The position numbers were made by a program, and so were the translations under genes. This document shows, piece by piece, positions 44,176 to 54,150 of a stretch of DNA of 64,000 nt (position 1 is the first letter of the stretch; each line of letters begins with the position of its first letter). Origin of the DNA: Luteimonas marina. GTDB lineage: Bacteria > Pseudomonadota > Gammaproteobacteria > Xanthomonadales > Xanthomonadaceae. The notes below the pieces were generated by a model. That model was not told the origin of the DNA and ran no database searches. It saw nothing but the letters and a program-made list of their open reading frames with translations. The DNA is taken from the NCBI RefSeq assembly GCF_007859325.1, contig NZ_VOHK01000002.1, forward strand, positions 62,001 to 126,000, given 5' to 3'.

Positions 44176-44316
44176 GGAACACCCTTGGCGCGCAGCCGAC
44201 GGGGCCGCAGCTAGCCGCGGAGTATAAAACAAGCGTTCCGCACTGCCACGCCCGGGCCGCGGCCGGCCTTGCCGTCTCGGCCGCTGCGATGGCGCTGCGG
44301 CACAATGCCCGCGACC

Positions 44317-47300
44317 ATGCCCAGCGCCGTCCCCGACTTCCGCCTGTACCACGCCAACGCGCTGGAAGTGCTGGCCGGCCTGCTGGCGGAGGCGTTGCGC
44401 ACGCCGGCGCCGGGCGCGTCGCTGCTGGCGCCGGACACGGTGCTGATCCCGCAGGTGGCGATGCGGCGCTGGCTGCAGGCGACCCTGGCTGAGCGCCACG
44501 GCGTGGCCGCCAACCTCGAATTCCTGACCCCCGGCGAGTTCGTGCGCCGCGCGCTGGATGCCAATCCCGGACCGGGTCCGGGGCCGGAGGACGCCGACGA
44601 CCTCGACGCCGCCGCGCTGCACTGGCGGCTCTATGCCGCGCTGGCCGATCCGACATTGGTGGCGCGCCCGGCGATGGCGCAGCTCGCCGCCTACCTGTCC
44701 GGCGCGGCTTCAGGACAGCCCGATCCCTTGAAACCATGGTCGCTGGCCGGCGAACTCGCCGACGTGTTCGAGAAATACCAGGCCTGGCGCCGCGACTGGC
44801 TGCTGCGCTGGGAAGACGGCGCCGACCCGGATGATCCGCAGGCGATCCTCTGGCGCCGCGTCGCCGGCGACGGCGCCCACCGCGCGCGCCGCATCCAGCG
44901 CTACCTCGACGGCTTCGAGGGCGCGGACAGGCCGCTGCCCAAGGGCCTGCCGCCGCGCGTGTTCGCCTTCGCCACCCTCAACGTCTCGCCCGACGTGCTG
45001 CGGGTGATGGCGACGCAGGCGCGCGCGGGCACCCTGCACTTCTACCTGCCCACGCCGACCCGGGCCTACTGGGGCGACCTGCAGACGTTGGCCGGGAAAC
45101 TGCGCGCCGGCGACGCCGACCCCTTCGGCGAGGCGACCGGCGAGAACCGCCTGCTGCAGGCCTGGGGCGCGGCCGGCCGCGACTTCATGGCGGTGCTCGG
45201 CAGCTATGAAGTGGTGCATCCGTCCGGCGAGATCGCCGCCTACGCCGATCCGGAAGAAGACGCGCGCCCGACGCTGGCCGAAGGCGGCCTGTCCGACGGC
45301 CTCCTGCACCGGCTGCAGCGCGACCTGTTCCACCGTCGCGCCGACCCTTCCGGCGAGCGGCTGCCCGCCCTGCGCAGGGACGACCCCAGCCTGCAGGTCC
45401 ACGCCTGCCACACCCGCCTGCGCGAACTGCAGGTGCTGCACGACCAGCTGCGCGGCCTGCTCGAGGATCCGCGCTTCGACCCGCCGCTGCAGCCGCGCGA
45501 GATCGCGGTGCTGGCGCCGGACATCGATCCCTACGTGCCTTACCTCGAAGCCGTGTTCGGCGGGCGGGGGGAGGGCGAACACCTGCCCTACGCCCTGGCC
45601 GACACCAGCCCGCTGGCCAACGAACCCCTGGCCGAAGTGTTCCTGCGCCTGCTCGGCCTGCCGCTGTCGCGCTTCGGCCTGGACGAGATCCTCGACCTGC
45701 TCGCCAGCGCGCCGATCGCCGCCGCCGCCGGCCTCGACGCTGCGGCGATCGAGCGCCTGCACGGCTGGCTGCAGGCCGCCGGCGCGCGCTGGGCGCTCGA
45801 CGCCCGCCATCGCGCCGCGCACGACGCGCCTGCCGACGATGCCTACACCTGGCAGTTCGCGCTCGACCGCCTGCTGCTCGGCCACGCCCTCGGCGACGAC
45901 GACGCCATCGCCGCCGCCAGCGGCCAGGTCGTCGCGCCGTGGCCGGAGCTCGAAGGCAGCGCGCTCGATGCGCTGGACACCCTGCTCGGCCTGCTGCGCA
46001 CGCTGGCGCGCCAGCAGAAGGCGCTGGGCGAGGCGATGCCGCCCGCGCAGTGGCGCGAACGCCTGCTCGACCTGCTCAAGGCGCTGCTGCCCGCCGAACC
46101 GACCGATCCCGCCGCCCGGCGCGCGCTCGACCGCCTGCGCAAGCTGATCGAGGAATTCGCGAAACATGCCGCCGACGCCGGCTTCGACGCCGCGGTGCCG
46201 GCCGAAGTCGTGCGCGCGCATTTCGCCGCCGCGCTGGCGCAGGCCGACACCCGCGCGCCGCTGCTCACCGGCGGCATCAGCTTCGGCCGCATGGTGCCGA
46301 TGCGGCTGCTGCCGTTCCGCGTCATCTGCGTGCTCGGCATGAACGACGGCGACTATCCGCGCCGCGATCCCGCCGCGGGCCTGAGCCGGCTCACTGCCGA
46401 ACTCGGCACCGACAAGCGCCGCCCCGGCGACCGCTCGCTGCGCGAGGACGACCGCTTCCTGTTCCTGCAGCTGTTCGCCGCCGCGCAGGACGTGTTCTAC
46501 CTCAGCTACCTCGGCGCCGATCCGCGCGACGGCAGCGTGCGCGAACCCTCGGTGCTGGTCAGCGAACTGCTCGACGCCGCCGCGCGCTACCACGCCGATC
46601 CGGCTGCGGTGAAGCAACAGATGGTCGTGCGCCATCCGCTGCAGCCGTTCTCGCCGGCCGCGTTCGGCGGCGACGACCCGCGCCGCTTCAGCTATCGCGG
46701 GCAGTGGCATCCCGCCGCCGGTGCGACGGCGGTGGCGCGCGCGCGACTGGCGCCATGGATCGACGGCCACCTGCCCGGCGATGAAGACGACGTCGGCACC
46801 GAACTTTCGCTGGACGCGCTGAAGAAGTTCTTCACCGATCCGGCAGGGGAATTCCTGCGCCACCGGCTCGCGCTGCGCCTGCCCGACGGCATCGAAGTGT
46901 CGGACGACATCGAGCCGCTGCTGCTGCCCGCGCGCGGGCTGGACGCGCTGCACCTGCGCCAGGCCGTGGCCGAGGCGCTGCTGCAGGGCGAGGAGCACGC
47001 GCTGCATGCGCGCCTGCGCGCGCGCGCGCTGCTGCCGTCCGGGGCGTTGGGCGAACGCCAGTTCGAAGCGCTGCTCGAAGACATGCGCGCCTATGTCGAC
47101 GCCTACCGCCACTGGCGCGGCGGCAGCGAAGGCGCGACCGTCGAGCACGAGGTCGAGATCGACGGCCTCCGCCTGCGCGGCCGCATCAATGATGTGCATG
47201 CGCACGGCATCGCCGTGCTGCGTCCCGGCAAGCCGGGCGGCCCGGCCGTGATCCGCAGCGGCCTCGACCGCCTGCTGGCCAACGCCGCGGGCGCCGCGCT

Positions 47301-47694
47301 GCCGCTGGTGCAGTTCCACGGGGACGACGGCGTCGGCCCGCATGCCGCGCCCGCGCTCGCCAGTGATGCCGCGCGCGACGCGCTGCGCACGCTGCTGCAG
47401 TTGCGCCGCGCCGGCCTGCGCGCCCCGCTGCTGTACGGCCCGCGCACCGGCTGGGCGATCTGGAATGCATCCAATGACGACAGGATGCGCCGCGCCGCCT
47501 TCGACGCCTGGCACGGCAACGACCATGCTTGGGGCGAAGCGACGTCCGACAGCATGCGGCTCGCGCTGCGCGGGCGCGATCCGTTCGCGGAGGCCTCCGA
47601 CTACGACACGCTGGTCGATACCTGCCAGCGCGTGTTCGCCGCGGTCTGCGCCGGCATGGCCAGCGGCGATGCCGCACAGGACGATGCCGCATGA
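44317..47694 (+). CDS. recC: Exodeoxyribonuclease V subunit gamma
   Basis: A 1125-residue RecC. The N-terminus FRLYHANALEVLAGLLAEAL ... VAMRRWLQATLAERHGVAAN aligns with E. coli RecC. The conserved GRMVPMRLLPFRVICVLGMNDGDYPRRD motif lies near residue 660. It recognises Chi and threads the 3' strand in RecBCD recombinational repair. An ATG 12 bases upstream is an alternative start. Its stop overlaps the recB start by 4 bases. Confidence 0.95.
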   Translation: MPSAVPDFRLYHANALEVLAGLLAEALRTPAPGASLLAPDTVLIPQVAMRRWLQATLAERHGVAANLEFLTPGEFVRRALDANPGPGPGPEDADDLDAAALHWRLYAALADPTLVARPAMAQLAAYLSGAASGQPDPLKPWSLAGELADVFEKYQAWRRDWLLRWEDGADPDDPQAILWRRVAGDGAHRARRIQRYLDGFEGADRPLPKGLPPRVFAFATLNVSPDVLRVMATQARAGTLHFYLPTPTRAYWGDLQTLAGKLRAGDADPFGEATGENRLLQAWGAAGRDFMAVLGSYEVVHPSGEIAAYADPEEDARPTLAEGGLSDGLLHRLQRDLFHRRADPSGERLPALRRDDPSLQVHACHTRLRELQVLHDQLRGLLEDPRFDPPLQPREIAVLAPDIDPYVPYLEAVFGGRGEGEHLPYALADTSPLANEPLAEVFLRLLGLPLSRFGLDEILDLLASAPIAAAAGLDAAAIERLHGWLQAAGARWALDARHRAAHDAPADDAYTWQFALDRLLLGHALGDDDAIAAASGQVVAPWPELEGSALDALDTLLGLLRTLARQQKALGEAMPPAQWRERLLDLLKALLPAEPTDPAARRALDRLRKLIEEFAKHAADAGFDAAVPAEVVRAHFAAALAQADTRAPLLTGGISFGRMVPMRLLPFRVICVLGMNDGDYPRRDPAAGLSRLTAELGTDKRRPGDRSLREDDRFLFLQLFAAAQDVFYLSYLGADPRDGSVREPSVLVSELLDAAARYHADPAAVKQQMVVRHPLQPFSPAAFGGDDPRRFSYRGQWHPAAGATAVARARLAPWIDGHLPGDEDDVGTELSLDALKKFFTDPAGEFLRHRLALRLPDGIEVSDDIEPLLLPARGLDALHLRQAVAEALLQGEEHALHARLRARALLPSGALGERQFEALLEDMRAYVDAYRHWRGGSEGATVEHEVEIDGLRLRGRINDVHAHGIAVLRPGKPGGPAVIRSGLDRLLANAAGAALPLVQFHGDDGVGPHAAPALASDAARDALRTLLQLRRAGLRAPLLYGPRTGWAIWNASNDDRMRRAAFDAWHGNDHAWGEATSDSMRLALRGRDPFAEASDYDTLVDTCQRVFAAVCAGMASGDAAQDDAA

Positions 47695-50600
47695 GCGTCG
47701 TCGAACTCCACGAGGACGACTCCCTGCGCCTTCCGCTCGACGGCGTGCAGCTGATCGAGGCCAGCGCCGGCACCGGCAAGACCTTCACCCTGGCGACGCT
47801 GTTCACGCGGCTGGTGGTCGAACGGCGGCTGCGCATCGGCCAGATCCTCGCGGTCACCTTCACCGACGCCGCCACCCAGGAACTGCGCCGCCGCATCCGC
47901 GAACGGCTCGAACTGGCCTCGCGCATCGCGGGCACGGCGGCGGGCGAGGGCGAGGACCACGAAACCGCGCTGACCCGCGCGATCCTCGAGCGCCGCCTGC
48001 AGGCCGGCGACGAAACCGCCGCGCAGCTGGCGCGGCGACTGGCCATCGCCGCCGAGGAGATCGACCTCGCCGCGATCTTCACCATCCACGGCTTCTGTGC
48101 ACGCGTGCTCTCCGAGCACGCCATCGACAGCGGCCACGCCTTCGACGCGCCGGAGCTGCTCGCCAACCTGCAGCCGCTGCACGCCGAAGTGGCCGCCGAC
48201 CTGTGGCGCAAACACGCCAACGATGCCGACGCACTGGAAGCGCTGACCGCGCTGTGGCGCGGACCGGAGGCGCTCGCCGGCGACCTGCGTGCGCTGCTCG
48301 GCGACCTGCCGCTGCTGCCGGTGGTCGATGACGACGCCGACGATCCGCGCGCCGCCGCCGCCGTGGCCACCGCGCAGCTCGCGCAGGCCATCGACGCGCA
48401 CCTCGACGACGCCCGGGCCGCCATCGGCAAGGCCTTCGACGCCAAGGTGTTCGACGGCCGCCGCGCGCGCCGCGCCAGCTTCGACAAGGCCTTCGAGGAA
48501 CTGCGCAAGGGCCGCGCGGCCGGCCACTGGCCGCGCAGCGACAAGACCCACCTGCAAAAATTGCTGCCGGCGCAGCAGCTCGGCTACTGCAAGGACGGCC
48601 GGCAGGCCGAGCTGCCCGCGTCGCCCCTGTTCGATCTCCTGCAGGCCTGGTGCGAGGCGGACGACGCGATGGAGGCCTGGCGCGTCGCACGACGCGTCGC
48701 GCTGCTGCACCGCATCCGCGACGAGGCGCGTGCGCGCGTCGCCCTGCTCAAGCGCCAGCGCCGGCTGCAGACCTACGACGACCTGATCGACGGCGTCGCC
48801 GCCGCGCTCGACGGCCCGCATCGTCGGCGGCTGGTCGCGCAGCTGCGCCGGCAGTACCGCGTCGCGCTGGTGGACGAGTTCCAGGACACCGATGCGCGCC
48901 AGTGGGCGATCTTTCGCCGCGTGTTCGGCGATTCGGAGGAAGTGCGCGAGGCGGGCGAGCAACCGGCGCTGTTCGTGATCGGCGATCCCAAGCAGGCGAT
49001 CTACGGCTTCCGCGGCGGCGACGTGCAGACGTATCTGCAGGCGAAGGACACGGCCTCTGTCGCACCTCGCCTGCGGCACAACTTCCGCTCGCGCCCGTCG
49101 CTGCTGCGCGCGATCGAGGCGCTGTACGCCAACGCCGGCGACGAGGCCTTCGTCGAACACGGCATCGCCTTCGAGCCGGTCCTGCCCGGCGGCCGGCGCG
49201 ACGACGCCGACTACCTGCGCGACGGCGCGGCGGCGCCCGCGCTCACCGTGCGCCTGGTCCATGGCGAAGACCGCGTGCCGCTCAACGCCGATCCCTCGCG
49301 CGAGGCCGTCACCGCCGCCTGCGTCGCCGACATCCACCGCGTGCTGTCCGATGCCCGCGCCGGGCGCGCGCTGATCGACGGCCAGCCGGTGCAGCCCGGC
49401 GACATCGCCGTGCTCGTGCGCACGCATCGCGAGGCCACGCGCGTGCAGCTGGCGCTGGCGGCGGCCGGCATTCCCGCGGTCGCCGCGGGCAAGCAGAGCC
49501 TGTACGCCACGCCCGAGGCGCAGGACCTGCGCCTGCTGCTGCTGGCGCTGCTGCAGCCGGCCGACGACGGACGCCTGCGCGCCGCGCTGTCCACCGTGCT
49601 GCTCGGTTTCGACGCGGCCGCCATCGCCAACCTCGACCACGACGGCGACGCCCTGCGCGCCGCGCAGGACGCGCTGCTGCGCTGGCGCGAGCGCTGGCAG
49701 CGCGGCGGGCCGTTCGCGCTGGTGTCCGACCTCTGCGCCGGGCAGGCCGAACGCCTGCTGGCGCTGTTCGACGGCGAACGCCGCGTCACCAACTACCTGC
49801 AGCTGGGCGAACTGCTGCAGGAAGCCGCCGGCGCGGCGCTGGGCCTGCACGGCCTGCTCGACTGGCTGCAGCTGCAGATCGCGCGCGCCGACGAAAACGA
49901 CGACACCCAGCTGCTGCGGCTCGAATCCGACGCGCGCCGCGTGCAGATCGTCACCCTGCACAAGAGCAAGGGCCTGGAGTATCCGCTGGTCTACCTGCCG
50001 TTCTCCGGCATCGGCAGCAAGCCGCCGAGCACCGCCCGCCACCACGCCATGCACGACGGCACGCAGCGCAGGCTGTGCTGGAAGGTCGCGAAGGACGAAG
50101 CCTGGGCCGCCGTCGAAGCCCGCGCCGCCGCCGAGCGCGCGGCCGAGGACGCGCGCCTGCTCTACGTCGGACTCACCCGCGCCGAACATGCGCTGTGGAT
50201 CGCCGCCGGCGACCTGAAGGAGTTCAACGACACGCGGCTCGCACCGCTGCTCTCGGACCTCGACGCGCTGCGCGGCAGCGACGGCATCCGCATCGTCGAA
50301 GGCCCGGCCGAGGACGCCCCACCGCGCCTGCCGGTCGAGCGCGATGCGATCGTGCCGCCGGCGCGCGTCGCCGCCCGCCCCATCGCGCCGGACTGGTGGG
50401 TCTACAGCTTCACCCAGCTCGCGCACGCCGACGGCCAGCACGACACCGAGGCCGCGGCCACCGAGGACATCGGCGCGGCCTCGGACGAACCGGCGCAAGC
50501 CATCGACGCGGAACTTCCCGTTGAAGCCGCCGGCGACGCCTTTGACCCGCGCTTCTCCGGCAGCCGCTTCGGCAATGTCCTGCACGCCGCGCTGGAGACG

Positions 50601-51311
50601 GCCGACTTCGCCGCCTGGGCCGGCTGGCGCGAGGGCGATCCCGCGCCACAGGGACAGGATGCGCCGCTGCTGAAGGCGCTGCGCGATGAAGGCTACGCGC
50701 GCGATGACCTCGACGATGGCCTCGCCCTGCTCGTCTCGCTGGTCGGCCGCACGCTCACCGTCGCCCTGCCCGAAGGCGGCGCCCTGCACGCGCTGGGCGC
50801 ACACGAGCGCCGCGCCGAGATCGAATTCCACTTCGCCATGCAGCCCACGTCCGTGCCCGCGCTGCTCGACCTGCTGCACGCGCACGGCGTGGTGCGCGAG
50901 CGCCGCGGCTTCGGCCTGCGCCGCCGGCTCGAAGGCCTGATGACCGGCAAGATCGACCTCACCTACGTGCACGGCGGCCGCTGGCACGTGCTCGACTACA
51001 AGTCCAACCGCCTGCCGCGCTACGACGCCGCGCAGCTCGCCGCCGCCATGGCGCACAGCGAATACGACCTGCAGGCCCTGATCTACACCGTCGCCCTGCA
51101 CCGCTGGCTGCGCTTCCGCCTCGGCAGCGCGTCCGATCACGGCGGCTACGACTACGCCCGCGACTTCGGCGGCATCCGCTACCTCTTCTGCCGCGGCCTC
51201 GACCCCGCGGGCGATCCATCGAAGGGCATCTTCGCGCATCGCTACGCGCCGCAGCTCGTGCACGCGCTCGACGCCCTGTTCGCAGGCCGAGCGGAAGGAG
51301 TCGCCGCGTGA
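47691..51311 (+). CDS. recB: Exodeoxyribonuclease V subunit beta
   Basis: A 1206-residue RecB. SF1 helicase motifs: ASAGTGKTFTL (near residue 24), AVTFTDAATQELRRR, DEFQDTD, VGDPKQAIY-equivalent VIGDPKQAIYGFRGGD, VQIVTLHKSKGLEYP and LLYVGLTRAEHALW. The C-terminal nuclease domain keeps the catalytic set GKIDLTY (about 1085) and LDYKSNRL (about 1101). It is the 3'-5' helicase and sole nuclease of RecBCD. It overlaps both neighbours by 4 bases (ATGA). Confidence 0.96.
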   Translation: MSVVELHEDDSLRLPLDGVQLIEASAGTGKTFTLATLFTRLVVERRLRIGQILAVTFTDAATQELRRRIRERLELASRIAGTAAGEGEDHETALTRAILERRLQAGDETAAQLARRLAIAAEEIDLAAIFTIHGFCARVLSEHAIDSGHAFDAPELLANLQPLHAEVAADLWRKHANDADALEALTALWRGPEALAGDLRALLGDLPLLPVVDDDADDPRAAAAVATAQLAQAIDAHLDDARAAIGKAFDAKVFDGRRARRASFDKAFEELRKGRAAGHWPRSDKTHLQKLLPAQQLGYCKDGRQAELPASPLFDLLQAWCEADDAMEAWRVARRVALLHRIRDEARARVALLKRQRRLQTYDDLIDGVAAALDGPHRRRLVAQLRRQYRVALVDEFQDTDARQWAIFRRVFGDSEEVREAGEQPALFVIGDPKQAIYGFRGGDVQTYLQAKDTASVAPRLRHNFRSRPSLLRAIEALYANAGDEAFVEHGIAFEPVLPGGRRDDADYLRDGAAAPALTVRLVHGEDRVPLNADPSREAVTAACVADIHRVLSDARAGRALIDGQPVQPGDIAVLVRTHREATRVQLALAAAGIPAVAAGKQSLYATPEAQDLRLLLLALLQPADDGRLRAALSTVLLGFDAAAIANLDHDGDALRAAQDALLRWRERWQRGGPFALVSDLCAGQAERLLALFDGERRVTNYLQLGELLQEAAGAALGLHGLLDWLQLQIARADENDDTQLLRLESDARRVQIVTLHKSKGLEYPLVYLPFSGIGSKPPSTARHHAMHDGTQRRLCWKVAKDEAWAAVEARAAAERAAEDARLLYVGLTRAEHALWIAAGDLKEFNDTRLAPLLSDLDALRGSDGIRIVEGPAEDAPPRLPVERDAIVPPARVAARPIAPDWWVYSFTQLAHADGQHDTEAAATEDIGAASDEPAQAIDAELPVEAAGDAFDPRFSGSRFGNVLHAALETADFAAWAGWREGDPAPQGQDAPLLKALRDEGYARDDLDDGLALLVSLVGRTLTVALPEGGALHALGAHERRAEIEFHFAMQPTSVPALLDLLHAHGVVRERRGFGLRRRLEGLMTGKIDLTYVHGGRWHVLDYKSNRLPRYDAAQLAAAMAHSEYDLQALIYTVALHRWLRFRLGSASDHGGYDYARDFGGIRYLFCRGLDPAGDPSKGIFAHRYAPQLVHALDALFAGRAEGVAA

Positions 51312-53311
51312 GCCTGCTCGATGCCCTGTTCCGCGGCGGCCACCTGCGCACCCTCGACCACGCGCTCGCGCAGAGCCTGCGCCGTCTCGACCCGTCCACG
51401 CCCGACGCCGTGCTGGCCGCCGCCGCCCTCGCCTCGCTCGCCGTGTCGAAGGGACATGCCGGCCTGCAGCTCGACCGCGCGCGCGACCTGCTCGACGGCG
51501 ACGATCCCGCCATCGCCTGGCCCGATGCCGGCGACTGGCAGCGACAGCTCGCCGCCTCGCGCTGGGTCGCCGCGCCCGTCGATCCCGTGCAGCCGTCCGA
51601 TACTCAGGCACCGCTGGTGCTCGAAGGCGCGCATGGCGCGCCGGACCTGCTCTACCTGCGCCGCTACCGCGAATACGAACGTGCCCTCGCGCTCGGCCTG
51701 CAGCGCATCGGCGTGCACGCCCCCGACGCGGTCGGTCTCGATGTCCTCGCGCCGCTGTTCGCACAACTCTTCCCGCAGGTCCCCGGCAAAGACCGCCAGG
51801 CCCTCGCCGCCGCCACCGCCCTCCGCCACAACCTCGTCCTGATCACCGGCGGCCCCGGTACCGGCAAGACCACCACCATCGCCCGCCTCCTGGTCCTCCT
51901 CGCCGCCCAGGCGCTGCAGGACCACAAGCCTGCCCCGCGCATCGCCCTCGCCGCCCCCACCGGCCGCGCCGCCGAGCGCATGGCCGACAGCGTCCGCAAT
52001 GCCCTGCAGTCGCTGACTGCCGCCGGCATCGCCCCCGAGCTGCTCGCACAGCTGCCCACCACCGGCACCACCCTGCACCGCCTGCTCGGCACCCTCCCCG
52101 ACTCCCCGCGCTTCCGCCACCACGCCGACCACCCGCTGCCGTTCGACGTCGTCGTGGTCGACGAAGCCTCGATGATCGACCTGCCGCTGATGGCCAAACT
52201 GGTCGACGCCGTCGCCGACGGCGCGAAACTCGTCCTGCTCGGCGACCCCGACCAGCTCCCCTCGGTCGAAGCCGGCGACGTCCTTTCCGGCATCCTCCGC
52301 GCCGTCGGCAACGGCGAACGCATCACTGCCGAAGATGCCACCGCCCTACAGCCGCTGCTGAACCGTCATCCCCGCGAACAAAGCCGTCATCCCCGCGAAG
52401 GCGGGGACCCAGCGTCTTTGCTCCCGAATCACCGCGAAGAAGGGAACCCCGACATTCCCCGGAACGCCGCAACCCCAACCTTCCCCGCCCGCCGCATCCA
52501 CCTCCAGCGCGGCTGGCGCCAGGACGAATCCCTGCACCTCGCCCCCCTCGCCACCGCCGTCCGCGAAGGCAATTCCGACACCGCCCTGTCCCTGCTCCGC
52601 AGCGGCACCCTGTCGAACGTCCACTTCCACGAAGCCCTCGCCGATCCGCTGCAGACGCACCGCGACCAACTGCTCGCCCACTGGCAATCGCTGGCCGAAG
52701 CCGCCACCCCCGCGCAGGCGCTCGCGCTTGCCGGCCGCCTGCGCATCCTCACCGCCGTCCGCGAAGGCCCCCAGGGCGCCCGCACCCTCAACGCCCGCAT
52801 CGAAGAGCTGCTCGCCGGCCCCAGCCGCCGCGGCAGCCGCCCCGCTTCAAACAAGCATTTTCACGGCCAGCTGCTGATCGTCACCGAGAACAGCTACCGC
52901 CACCGCCTGTTCAACGGCGACATCGGCATCTGCCAGCGCGATGCGAACGGCGCCTTGATGGCCTGGTTTCCCGGCGACCAGCCCGATGCCCCGCGCGCCT
53001 TCCACCCCGCCGCGCTGCCCGCCCACGACAGCGCCTTCGCCATGACCGTGCACAAGGCGCAAGGCTCCGAGTTCGACACCGTCTGGCTGCTGCTCCCCGC
53101 GCGATCCAATCGCGTGCTGTCGCGCGAGCTGGTCTACACCGGCATCACCCGCGCGCGGCGCGAGCTGCATGTTGCAGGAAGCGCCGAGGTTCTCCGCGAC
53201 GCGCTGGCACGGCATGCCAGCCGGTGGTCCGGATTGGGGCGGCGGTTGGGGTCGGAAACGGTACGCTGGGATCCCGCGTTGCAACCAACCATGGAAGGAG
53301 GTGGAGGATGA
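51308..53311 (+). CDS. recD: Exodeoxyribonuclease V subunit alpha with repeat-derived insertion
   Basis: A 667-residue RecD, about 60 longer than E. coli RecD. Walker A GGPGTGKTTT is at residues 181-190, VVVVDEASMIDLP is Walker B, GDPDQLPSVEAG is motif III, and TVHKAQGSEFDTVWLLLP and YTGITRARREL are motifs V and VI. It is the 5'-3' helicase. Residues about 352-395 (RHPREQSRHPREGGDPASLLP...) are not RecD-like; they are an in-frame translation of a dispersed palindromic repeat inserted in a loop before the RRIHLQRGWRQDESL motif. All helicase motifs remain intact, so the protein is probably functional. Confidence 0.95.
   Translation: MSLLDALFRGGHLRTLDHALAQSLRRLDPSTPDAVLAAAALASLAVSKGHAGLQLDRARDLLDGDDPAIAWPDAGDWQRQLAASRWVAAPVDPVQPSDTQAPLVLEGAHGAPDLLYLRRYREYERALALGLQRIGVHAPDAVGLDVLAPLFAQLFPQVPGKDRQALAAATALRHNLVLITGGPGTGKTTTIARLLVLLAAQALQDHKPAPRIALAAPTGRAAERMADSVRNALQSLTAAGIAPELLAQLPTTGTTLHRLLGTLPDSPRFRHHADHPLPFDVVVVDEASMIDLPLMAKLVDAVADGAKLVLLGDPDQLPSVEAGDVLSGILRAVGNGERITAEDATALQPLLNRHPREQSRHPREGGDPASLLPNHREEGNPDIPRNAATPTFPARRIHLQRGWRQDESLHLAPLATAVREGNSDTALSLLRSGTLSNVHFHEALADPLQTHRDQLLAHWQSLAEAATPAQALALAGRLRILTAVREGPQGARTLNARIEELLAGPSRRGSRPASNKHFHGQLLIVTENSYRHRLFNGDIGICQRDANGALMAWFPGDQPDAPRAFHPAALPAHDSAFAMTVHKAQGSEFDTVWLLLPARSNRVLSRELVYTGITRARRELHVAGSAEVLRDALARHASRWSGLGRRLGSETVRWDPALQPTMEGGGG
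52362..52490 (+). repeat. Repeat-derived insertion inside recD
   Basis: CGTCATCCCCGCGAACAAAG at 52364, then CGTCATCCCCGCGAAGGCGG with extension GGACCCAGCGTCTTTGC at 52385, then a degenerate TCACCGCGAAGAAGGGAACC at 52429, and perhaps GACATTCCCCGGAACGCC at 52451. The second copy matches the left arm of the 17589 element over about 34 bases with two differences. Total length is about 129 bases, a multiple of three, leaving the recD frame open. Confidence 0.85.
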
Positions 53312-54150
53312 AGAAGGATCTGGTGCACAGCCTGACGCAGAACTTCGAGGCGCATGCCAATCGCACAGAGGGTGGCGTCGAGTTCTGGTTGGCCCGCGAT
53401 CTGCAGCACCTGCTGGGATACAGCAAGTGGGACAACTTCCTGAACGTTGTTTCCAAGGCAAAAACAGCGTGTGAAGTGTCCGGGCATGCGGTCCCGGACC
53501 ATTTTGCCGACGTCGGGAAAATGGTTGGCCTGGGCTCTGGCAGCCAGCGCGAGGTGGACGACATCATGCTCACGCGCTACGCCTGCTATCTGGTCGCCCA
53601 GAACGGCGATCCCCGGAAACAGGAGATCGCATTTGCTCAGACCTACTTTGCGCTGCAGACGCGCCGCGCCGAACTGATCGAACAGCGGCTGCTGGAGGCG
53701 GAGCGGGTACAGGCGCGTCGCAAGCTGAGCGAAACCGAAAAGGAACTGTCCGGCGTCATCTTCCAGCAGACCGGCGGCAACCAGGATTTCGCATTGATCC
53801 GCAGCAAGGGCGACCATGCGCTCTTCGGCCGCAACACGCAGGACATGAAGGCGCGCTGGAAAGTGCCGGCCAGCCGGCCATTGGCCGATTTCGCCCCCAC
53901 CCTGATCCTCAAGGCCAAGGATTTCGCCACCGAGATCACGATCCACAACTCACGCGAACAGCGCATGCGAAGCGAGTCCGAAATCTCGCAGGAACATGTC
54001 TCGAACAACAAGGCGGTTCGCCAGACGCTGCTCGGACGCGGCATCCGTCCCGAAGACCTGCCGCCGGAAGAGGACGTCAGGAAGCTCGAGCGTCGCCTTG
54101 CCGCGGAAGACAAGAAGGCATTGAAAAAGCCGGATGCCCTGGACGATTGA
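53308..54150 (+). CDS. dinD: DNA-damage-inducible protein D, coupled to recD
   Basis: A 280-residue DinD. The BRO-N-like N-terminus FWLARDLQHLLGYSKWDNFLNVVSKAKTAC and the later DDIMLTRYACYLVAQNGDPRKQEIAFAQTYFA match E. coli DinD, an SOS-induced protein reported to affect RecA filaments. The start has an exceptional ribosome site (AAGGAGGTGGAGG) and overlaps the recD stop by 4 bases, so DinD is made with RecBCD rather than from its own LexA promoter. Base composition is lower in G+C than recB and recD, hinting at a later arrival. Confidence 0.93.
   Translation: MKKDLVHSLTQNFEAHANRTEGGVEFWLARDLQHLLGYSKWDNFLNVVSKAKTACEVSGHAVPDHFADVGKMVGLGSGSQREVDDIMLTRYACYLVAQNGDPRKQEIAFAQTYFALQTRRAELIEQRLLEAERVQARRKLSETEKELSGVIFQQTGGNQDFALIRSKGDHALFGRNTQDMKARWKVPASRPLADFAPTLILKAKDFATEITIHNSREQRMRSESEISQEHVSNNKAVRQTLLGRGIRPEDLPPEEDVRKLERRLAAEDKKALKKPDALDD

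Follow-up and report, generated by a model that had tools for sequence, protein, structure and literature searches.

Why does recD of Luteimonas marina carry, in frame, a palindromic repeat that is dispersed over the rest of the genome? The main text of PMC3733652 (Di Nocera et al. 2013) left undecided whether a REP within a repair gene alters the enzyme or is an accident in a flexible linker. We analyzed a window of 64,000 nucleotides, by which we mean the whole stretch of DNA, together with the recD genes of relatives. The best explanation as a whole, to which we give a probability of about 0.72, is an in-frame REP in a disordered, tolerant linker that acts as a repeat sink.

The host gene is an intact open frame of 667 aa (recD; 51308..53311, + strand) with a GTG start that overlaps the recB stop. 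Its translation scored 539.9 bits against the equivalog profile TIGR01447 (recD; cut-off 310.15), and the top fold match of its model was RecD of RecBCD (5ld2_D; E 3.3e-43; TM-score 0.77 by query length). Upstream lie the recC ORF (44269..47694, +; TIGR01450, 1018.5 bits) and recB (47691..51311, +), whose start was inferred from an ATGA overlap with recC and whose profile TIGR00609 scored 710.7 bits over 47679-51308. Equivalog score, fold, helicase motifs and the gene order recC-recB-recD all support the identity of RecD. A dinD-like gene (53308..54150, +; NF008573, DNA damage-inducible protein D, 379.9 bits) overlaps the recD stop with its start, so that recC-recB-recD-dinD form a single tightly packed run; co-expression with recCBD is conceivable. 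Motif I (GGPGTGKT, residues 181-188; 51848..51871, +) was intact, as judged by invariant alignment columns and a residue check over 82 rows, and alignment and the same residue check showed an intact motif III region (residues 310-323; 52235..52276, +) 5' of the insert. RecD is dispensable in E. coli, and "essential-type", the term used for this helicase in the first-pass annotation, is too strong.

The block within recD contains one full copy of a CGTC-REP; a partial but exact copy precedes it, and two probable, decayed copies follow it. The full copy (52385..52420, +; 27-nt core at 52385-52411) scored 43.4 bits with the PWM. It consists of a CGTC head, a stem of ATCCCCGC and GCGGGGAC around GAAG, a CCA tail and then GCGTCTTTG; the first stem pair is mismatched (A with C), and the translation is RHPREGGDPASL. 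The 20-mer named in the first-pass annotation matches exactly at 52386-52405. The partial copy, CGTCATCCCCGCGAA (52364..52378, +), reads HPRE in the frame of the full copy and is an exact repeat of 52385-52399; the identity covers 15-16 nt (52363-52378 = 52384-52399), and the PWM score over 27 nt is -5.4 bits. One probable decayed copy (52424..52450, +; NHREEGNP) is 82% identical to the full copy over 22 nt (-3.4 bits). The other (52450..52476, +), in a different frame, reads DIPRNAATP and scored 4.8 bits, a value that 3 out of 5000 shuffles of the codons in 52411-52500 reached. The best score on the + strand of the remainder of recD was -13.0. The block itself is a direct array, unlike the inverted pairs typical of this repeat elsewhere. 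Of the two to four direct, partial copies originally described, the direct array stood, with one copy full, one an exact partial and two only probable and decayed.

We designated the CGTC repeat found in recD as F1 and followed it through the window's own genome (G000; 3.91 Mb, 21 contigs). Seven places in the window match the 20-mer with ≤3 mismatches, against 0.03 expected from shuffles. The whole genome has 252 + 267 = 519 such places, and the reversed 20-mer pattern, as a control, had 0 matches there. With the exact 20-mer, these places and the open frame, the proposal of a dispersed repeat in frame within recD was borne out. The F1 consensus, derived from the 168 copies of a 1.2-Mb genome sample, is yCGTCATyCCsGCGAArGCsGGrAyCCA, then a looser GTGTCTTTG-like tail. 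The head letters C, G, T and C occur in these copies at 1.00, 1.00, 0.99 and 0.99, and also in the recD copy; GTC belonged to the search pattern and the first C did not. Within the consensus, ATYCCSGC-GAAR-GCSGGRAY-CCA forms an 8-bp stem starting A,T, with a 4-nt loop and a CCA tail, as described for the CGTC-1 class. Neighboring F1 copies <250 bp apart were inverted (+ then -) in 67 of 71 cases, with starts 53-151 bp apart. The genome has a single Y1_Tnp match (L161; G000:C1:578918-579244, -), which resembles REP-associated tyrosine transposases; the first 193 residues of its ORF scored 54.1 against the REP_Tyr_transpos cut-off of 80. No copies of F1 or of the three further families described below (F2-F4) lie within 1.5 kb on either side of it, and a RAYT was therefore rejected as the mobiliser of F1. 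As far as the Y1_Tnp type is concerned, F1 also agrees with the CGTC-1 class in having no dedicated transposase nearby.

The recD block falls in site C, a variable stretch between motif III and motif IV that takes up repeats (residues 328-398; 52289..52501, +) and connects the two RecA-like domains. The linker is 75 aa long here, 48-49 aa in ten Stenotrophomonas, 46-61 aa in five Xanthomonas and 38-77 aa in eight Pseudoxanthomonas; in eight Pseudomonas/Stutzerimonas RecDs it has 43 aa of unrelated sequence. Relative to Stenotrophomonas, the net gain is thus about 27 aa, and the 43 residues first proposed had to be revised. The block lies in a poorly aligned stretch in the alignment to E. coli RecD. 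In an AlphaFold2 model of RecD built from a 48-row alignment (mean pLDDT 88.7, pTM 0.89), residues 363-380 and 384-387, within the repeat-coded block, are the only internal runs (≥3 residues) with pLDDT <50. With pLDDT as a proxy for disorder, the model suggests that the repeat-coded loop would be disordered in the cell. The statement that the block sits between helicase motifs and breaks none of them proved accurate, since it occupies the motif III-IV linker and the catalytic residues are intact. These results confirm that the recD insert is a real in-frame REP and that the RecD carrying it is intact; the inter-domain linker in which it lies is probably disordered.

The comparison was extended to 82 Lysobacteraceae RecDs, from 50 of 52 genus-group genomes and 32 further named Lysobacteraceae. 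Two genus genomes were left out, one with no match (G035) and one with a contig-end fragment only (G038). From 80 named loci we left out the truncated L069, the rest from L071 on, which lie outside Lysobacteraceae, and those matching already counted genus genomes (L033, L034, L037, L041, L042, L053, L070 and L072). Across these 82 RecDs, 33 motif residues showed two departures, L310A in L058, which has no repeat, and G182S in the repeat-bearing L112; the residues had been picked as invariant in alignment A1, which shares rows with the 82. A1 has 48 chosen rows, and L061, L096, L108 and L109, initially wanted, were dropped.

Besides F1, the RecDs contained three further families. F2 is CTCTCCCGCNNGCGGGAGAG and also comes in a C-rich variant and with GCGCCGAAGGCGC as its right half. 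F3, GTAGGAGCGGCCCATGGCCGCGA, has a GTAG head, as in the other REP superfamily, and F4 is GTCATTCCGAGCGCAGCGAGGAATCC. At least one copy of these four unrelated families was present in 29 of the 82 RecDs, and at site C in 22. Site A (residues ~135-164) lies between the N-terminal domain and the first motor domain, and site B (residues 246-249) was occupied in two Xanthomonas. Outside sites A-C, one weak match was found among the 82, near the C-terminus of L155 (two mismatches to the F2 variant), and reversed family patterns gave 0 matches in all 82. Two linkers were occupied within one recD gene in L124, L129 and L132. Alignment of related Lysobacteraceae RecDs, a check proposed in the first-pass annotation, revealed a variable linker with F1 in some and, as that annotation had missed, unrelated families in others.

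A PWM scan for F1 covered 130 recD loci (linker located in 124; one strain occurs twice). It gave 10 matches in 18.5 kb of linker and none in the remaining 247.5 kb of recD frame, with 2 in 223 kb upstream and 2 in 254 kb downstream of the gene; the best linker copies were near-perfect (46.2, 43.5 and 43.4 bits). F1 was absent from recD at the 40 loci outside Lysobacteraceae (linker located in 36). None of these distant loci carried the same segment at equal similarity, and the Pseudomonas/Stutzerimonas linkers are unrelated, as noted above. It is exceedingly improbable that the segment is a native loop resembling the repeat by chance. Such words are frequent in high G+C coding sequence, and the looser F2 pattern matched motif VI of L084 with 2 mismatches; this match, in a distant RecD that is not among the 82, looks like chance and was rejected. 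Against a chance origin of the F1 block stand the 43.4 bits of the full copy compared with -13.0 for the rest of recD, the 0.03 matches expected in the window, and the reversed F1 PWM, which had 0 matches across the 130 loci. Chance likeness was thereby refuted for the full copy.

Three other features were seen in relatives. The linkers of L116, L138 and L140 (93, 142 and 112 aa) have a G(E/D)PAW(R/T)M(S/R)AT stretch in common and no F1-F4 above threshold. In the RecD linker of L126 (G024), part of the F2 left arm (TCACCTCTCCCGCTG-like) forms a short in-frame tandem array beside an intact F2. Many relatives (e.g. L033, L037, L114 and L159) have one to four F2-type palindromes 50-420 bp 5' of the aligned recD start.

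On a quick maximum-likelihood RecD tree with repeat-site columns removed, the minimum changes, gains and losses pooled, were 7 for F1 at site C, 8, 2 and 7 for F2 at sites A, B and C, 1 and 4 for F3 at sites A and C, and 1 for F4 at site C, a total of 30 that is inflated because copies decayed below threshold were scored as absent. We infer that most RecD occupancies are separate insertions.

We then compared genomic copy numbers with RecD occupancy in the 50 genus genomes scored; kinship was ignored in all of the following tests. Genomes with F1 in RecD had 17, 41, 89, 170 and 519 F1 copies and the others a median of 5 (p 0.002); two genomes with 124 and 134 copies had no F1 in RecD. F3 carriers had 16, 60, 145, 213 and 241 copies, and the other 45 genomes ≤23 (p 6e-5). 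The single F4 carrier had 77 copies (p 0.009), and the highest F4 load, 145, was that of the window's own genome, whose RecD has no F4. F2 load was higher in RecD carriers (p 0.004), with non-carriers reaching 93 and five carriers having counts of 0, 1, 2, 2 and 2; both strands were counted, so that a single copy of the palindromic F2 scores twice, and the counts of 2 probably reflect nothing but the copy in RecD. Linker length correlated with total repeat load (Spearman 0.54). The family that enters RecD thus tends to follow the family common in the genome. Load does not explain every case, as the low-count F2 carriers and the high-load F1 and F4 genomes with empty RecD illustrate, and this counts against a linker that simply takes up what is abundant.

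The same data bear on the possibility that one or a few old insertions were inherited and then lost in the majority of lineages, with dispersed copies refreshing them through gene conversion. This is improbable. The same linker and the same frame in distant species would fit it, as would the near-perfect best copies, and parsimony counts are blind to gain versus loss. It is difficult to reconcile with the presence, in related lineages, of unrelated families at the same linkers, or with two linkers filled in L124, L129 and L132. F3, moreover, is rare or absent (≤23 copies) where RecD has no F3, and the five F2 carriers with counts of 0, 1, 2, 2 and 2 have hardly any donor copy for conversion.

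The frame in which the repeats are read was regular. All eight forward F1 matches in the 82 RecDs were in the RHPREGGDP frame and in one orientation; the sole reverse match, in P. helianthi (L046), was the partner in an inverted pair and read SRLRGSDE. All six F3 matches read GAAHGR(D/E), and the F1 and F3 readings in RecDs are hydrophilic. The hydrophobic F1 frame, VIPAKAG, had no above-threshold match; the decayed copy at 52450 would fall in it. One frame and one orientation for the eight forward matches are more regular than blind insertion, which again weighs against tolerance as the whole explanation.

It is even less probable, we consider, that the repeat acts in the RNA, with a hairpin in recD mRNA lowering or timing RecD synthesis and the peptide a by-product. 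The full copy was able to form a stem-loop in the centroid RNA structure, and many REPs are transcribed according to the main text of PMC3733652. The recD block, however, folded no better than shuffles (z 0.00), and carriers at sites A and B would presumably need an equal effect elsewhere in the mRNA.

To place recD among other genes, we sampled 988 + 645 predicted genes in two genomes with a home-made codon-score caller, scored from the best start. Both samples, of 1.2 Mb from G000 and of two contigs (0.8 Mb) from G019, include the contig bearing recD, so that the rate for recD is biased and the emptiness of other genes is not. In G000, 3 of 168 F1 copies lay in predicted genes with a 5-base overhang allowed (strict containment 2/168), where about 143 would be expected under blind placement at the predicted coding fraction of 0.85. 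The three were the recD copy and an inverted pair coding for the last ~25 residues of a TatD-like DNase (L164; G000:C12:57104-58006, -; copies at residues 275 and 295 of 301 aa). In the same sample, none of the 60 F4 copies (≤4 mismatches) and none of the 7 F3 copies lay in a predicted gene. Four of 37 F2 copies (up to 2 mismatches) were intragenic. One is an in-frame F2-type palindrome (2 mismatches) near residue 473 of a PutA-like proline dehydrogenase/aldehyde dehydrogenase (L171; G000:C12:196586-199915, -), between the best Pro_dh stretch (197-439) and the Aldedh domain. Two more, also in frame and with 2 mismatches, are at residues ~410 and 428 of an AMP-binding enzyme (L217; G000:C17:307725-309461, -), beyond its Pfam domain (14-390), and the last is at the end of a third ORF. 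In G019, where F3 is abundant, 1 of 71 F3 copies was intragenic and its host gene was recD; 0 of 6 F1 copies were in predicted genes, and 1 of 5 F2 copies was intragenic, at residue 1221/1242 of the ORF just upstream of recD (by position recB). Hence recD is not the sole intragenic host, yet it stands out for the abundant REP families. That few other genes were hit among those predicted speaks against tolerance as a sufficient cause, since plain tolerance fails to say why recD was entered over other loose linkers.

Constraint was compared between hand-picked recD/recB pairs. The ratio of dN in the recD core to dN in the 3' part of recB was 0.51-2.81 in eight repeat-bearing pairs and 0.58-1.35 in ten without; in a ninth repeat-bearing pair, recB was without change. 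Because pairwise dS is compressed by codon bias, recD was compared with recB only. The nine repeat-bearing pairs had recD dN/dS values of 0.18-0.36, somewhat higher than the 0.07-0.28 of the ten pairs without repeats. There was no clear recD-specific decay or relaxation, which speaks against a plain mutator idea and leaves room for mild relaxation.

These observations bear on the proposal that the insertions are useful, with loop length or charge tuning RecBCD (speed, Chi response, escape from phage inhibitors) or making mutators. Several of them could be read in its favor: a minimum of 30 changes in a single gene, spread over four families, the lack of any gene but recD with a mid-gene F1 in the 1.2-Mb sample of G000 or with an F3 in the 0.8-Mb sample of G019, the single frame and orientation of F1, the somewhat higher recD dN/dS in repeat-bearing pairs, and the prominence of repair genes among REP-tagged ORFs in the main text of PMC3733652. 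Site C, however, ranges from 18 to 142 aa with several unrelated sequences, which argues against a specific peptide function, and the intact motif residues, together with a recD dN that is not clearly above that of recB, argue against mutators in particular. Usefulness is unlikely, and the RecD insertions appear to be near neutral rather than useful. Somewhat more credible, although still doubtful, is that RecD is a privileged REP acceptor in Lysobacteraceae, in which unrelated families keep returning to the same three places because insertion is steered or a remodelled RecD favored (e.g. against phage RecBCD inhibitors), beyond mere tolerance of loose linkers.

For the in-frame REP in a tolerant linker, the following course may be envisaged. 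A CGTC-tagged REP element would have entered the linker DNA between the two RecA-like motor domains of a Luteimonas-type RecD, kept the frame and come to be read as the hydrophilic peptide HPREGGDP. The insert most likely forms a disordered loop that projects from the folded helicase, so that RecD would still work. Lysobacteraceae RecD linkers may have lost a length constraint and become, again and again, a sink for palindromic repeats common in the lineage, with nearly all other copies presumably remaining outside genes. The repeat, its frame, its dispersal, the unrelated families in the same linkers and the intact motifs are direct observations. In the RecD case, noncoding repeats turn into protein sequence, filtered by frame and place. 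Lysobacteraceae RecDs are a natural series of dozens of enzymes with the same motifs and zero, one or more unrelated repeats in the same joints.

In-frame REPs in repair genes have been known since 2013. GTAG- and CGTC-tagged REPs were reported in frame within ORFs in PMC3733652, many of them DNA replication/repair genes with "recBCD proteins" included, and different REPs occupied about the same recB site in X. campestris and X. oryzae. Some genes were the only REP-tagged ORF of their species, and both linker tolerance and a mutator effect were proposed in its main text. RecD has 0 occurrences by name in that main text; Fig. 7B lists repair genes, and RecD cases may stand there or in the supplements. 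A literature search on Luteimonas with REP sequences gave no match, and one on RecD, Xanthomonas and repeats gave none on topic by title among the matches listed. In-frame REPs in repair genes are thus common to that work and the recD case. Going further than its main text are the tally of how many unrelated families occupy RecD linkers, the count of changes on the tree, the census of genes, the match with load and the comparison with recB. The recD insertion is ordinary in kind and striking in frequency and in the number of families at the same linkers; relative to that main text, what is added is that unrelated families have entered RecD linkers repeatedly and are nearly absent from other genes in the two genomes sampled.

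REPIN/RAYT systems (PMC3116915, PMC2817692), as far as described in the parts consulted, share with F1 short palindromes that are mostly in inverted pairs. Unlike RAYT-mobilised REPs, F1 does not flank the one candidate tyrosine transposase gene of its genome (1.5 kb flanks). Rickettsia palindromic elements (RPE-6/RPE-4) are in-frame palindromic repeats in coding genes. The recD insert differs from them in its non-rickettsial host, its recD target, its high intergenic copy number and the near absence of other intragenic copies in the sample, and is like them in lying in frame in a coding gene and being missing from orthologues. The stem, loop, CGTC head and CCA tail of F1 are those of CGTC-1 REPs in the main text of PMC3733652, which assigns RPE-6 of R. 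conorii to the same class, and the resemblance to Rickettsia palindromic elements noticed in the first-pass annotation is thus upheld.
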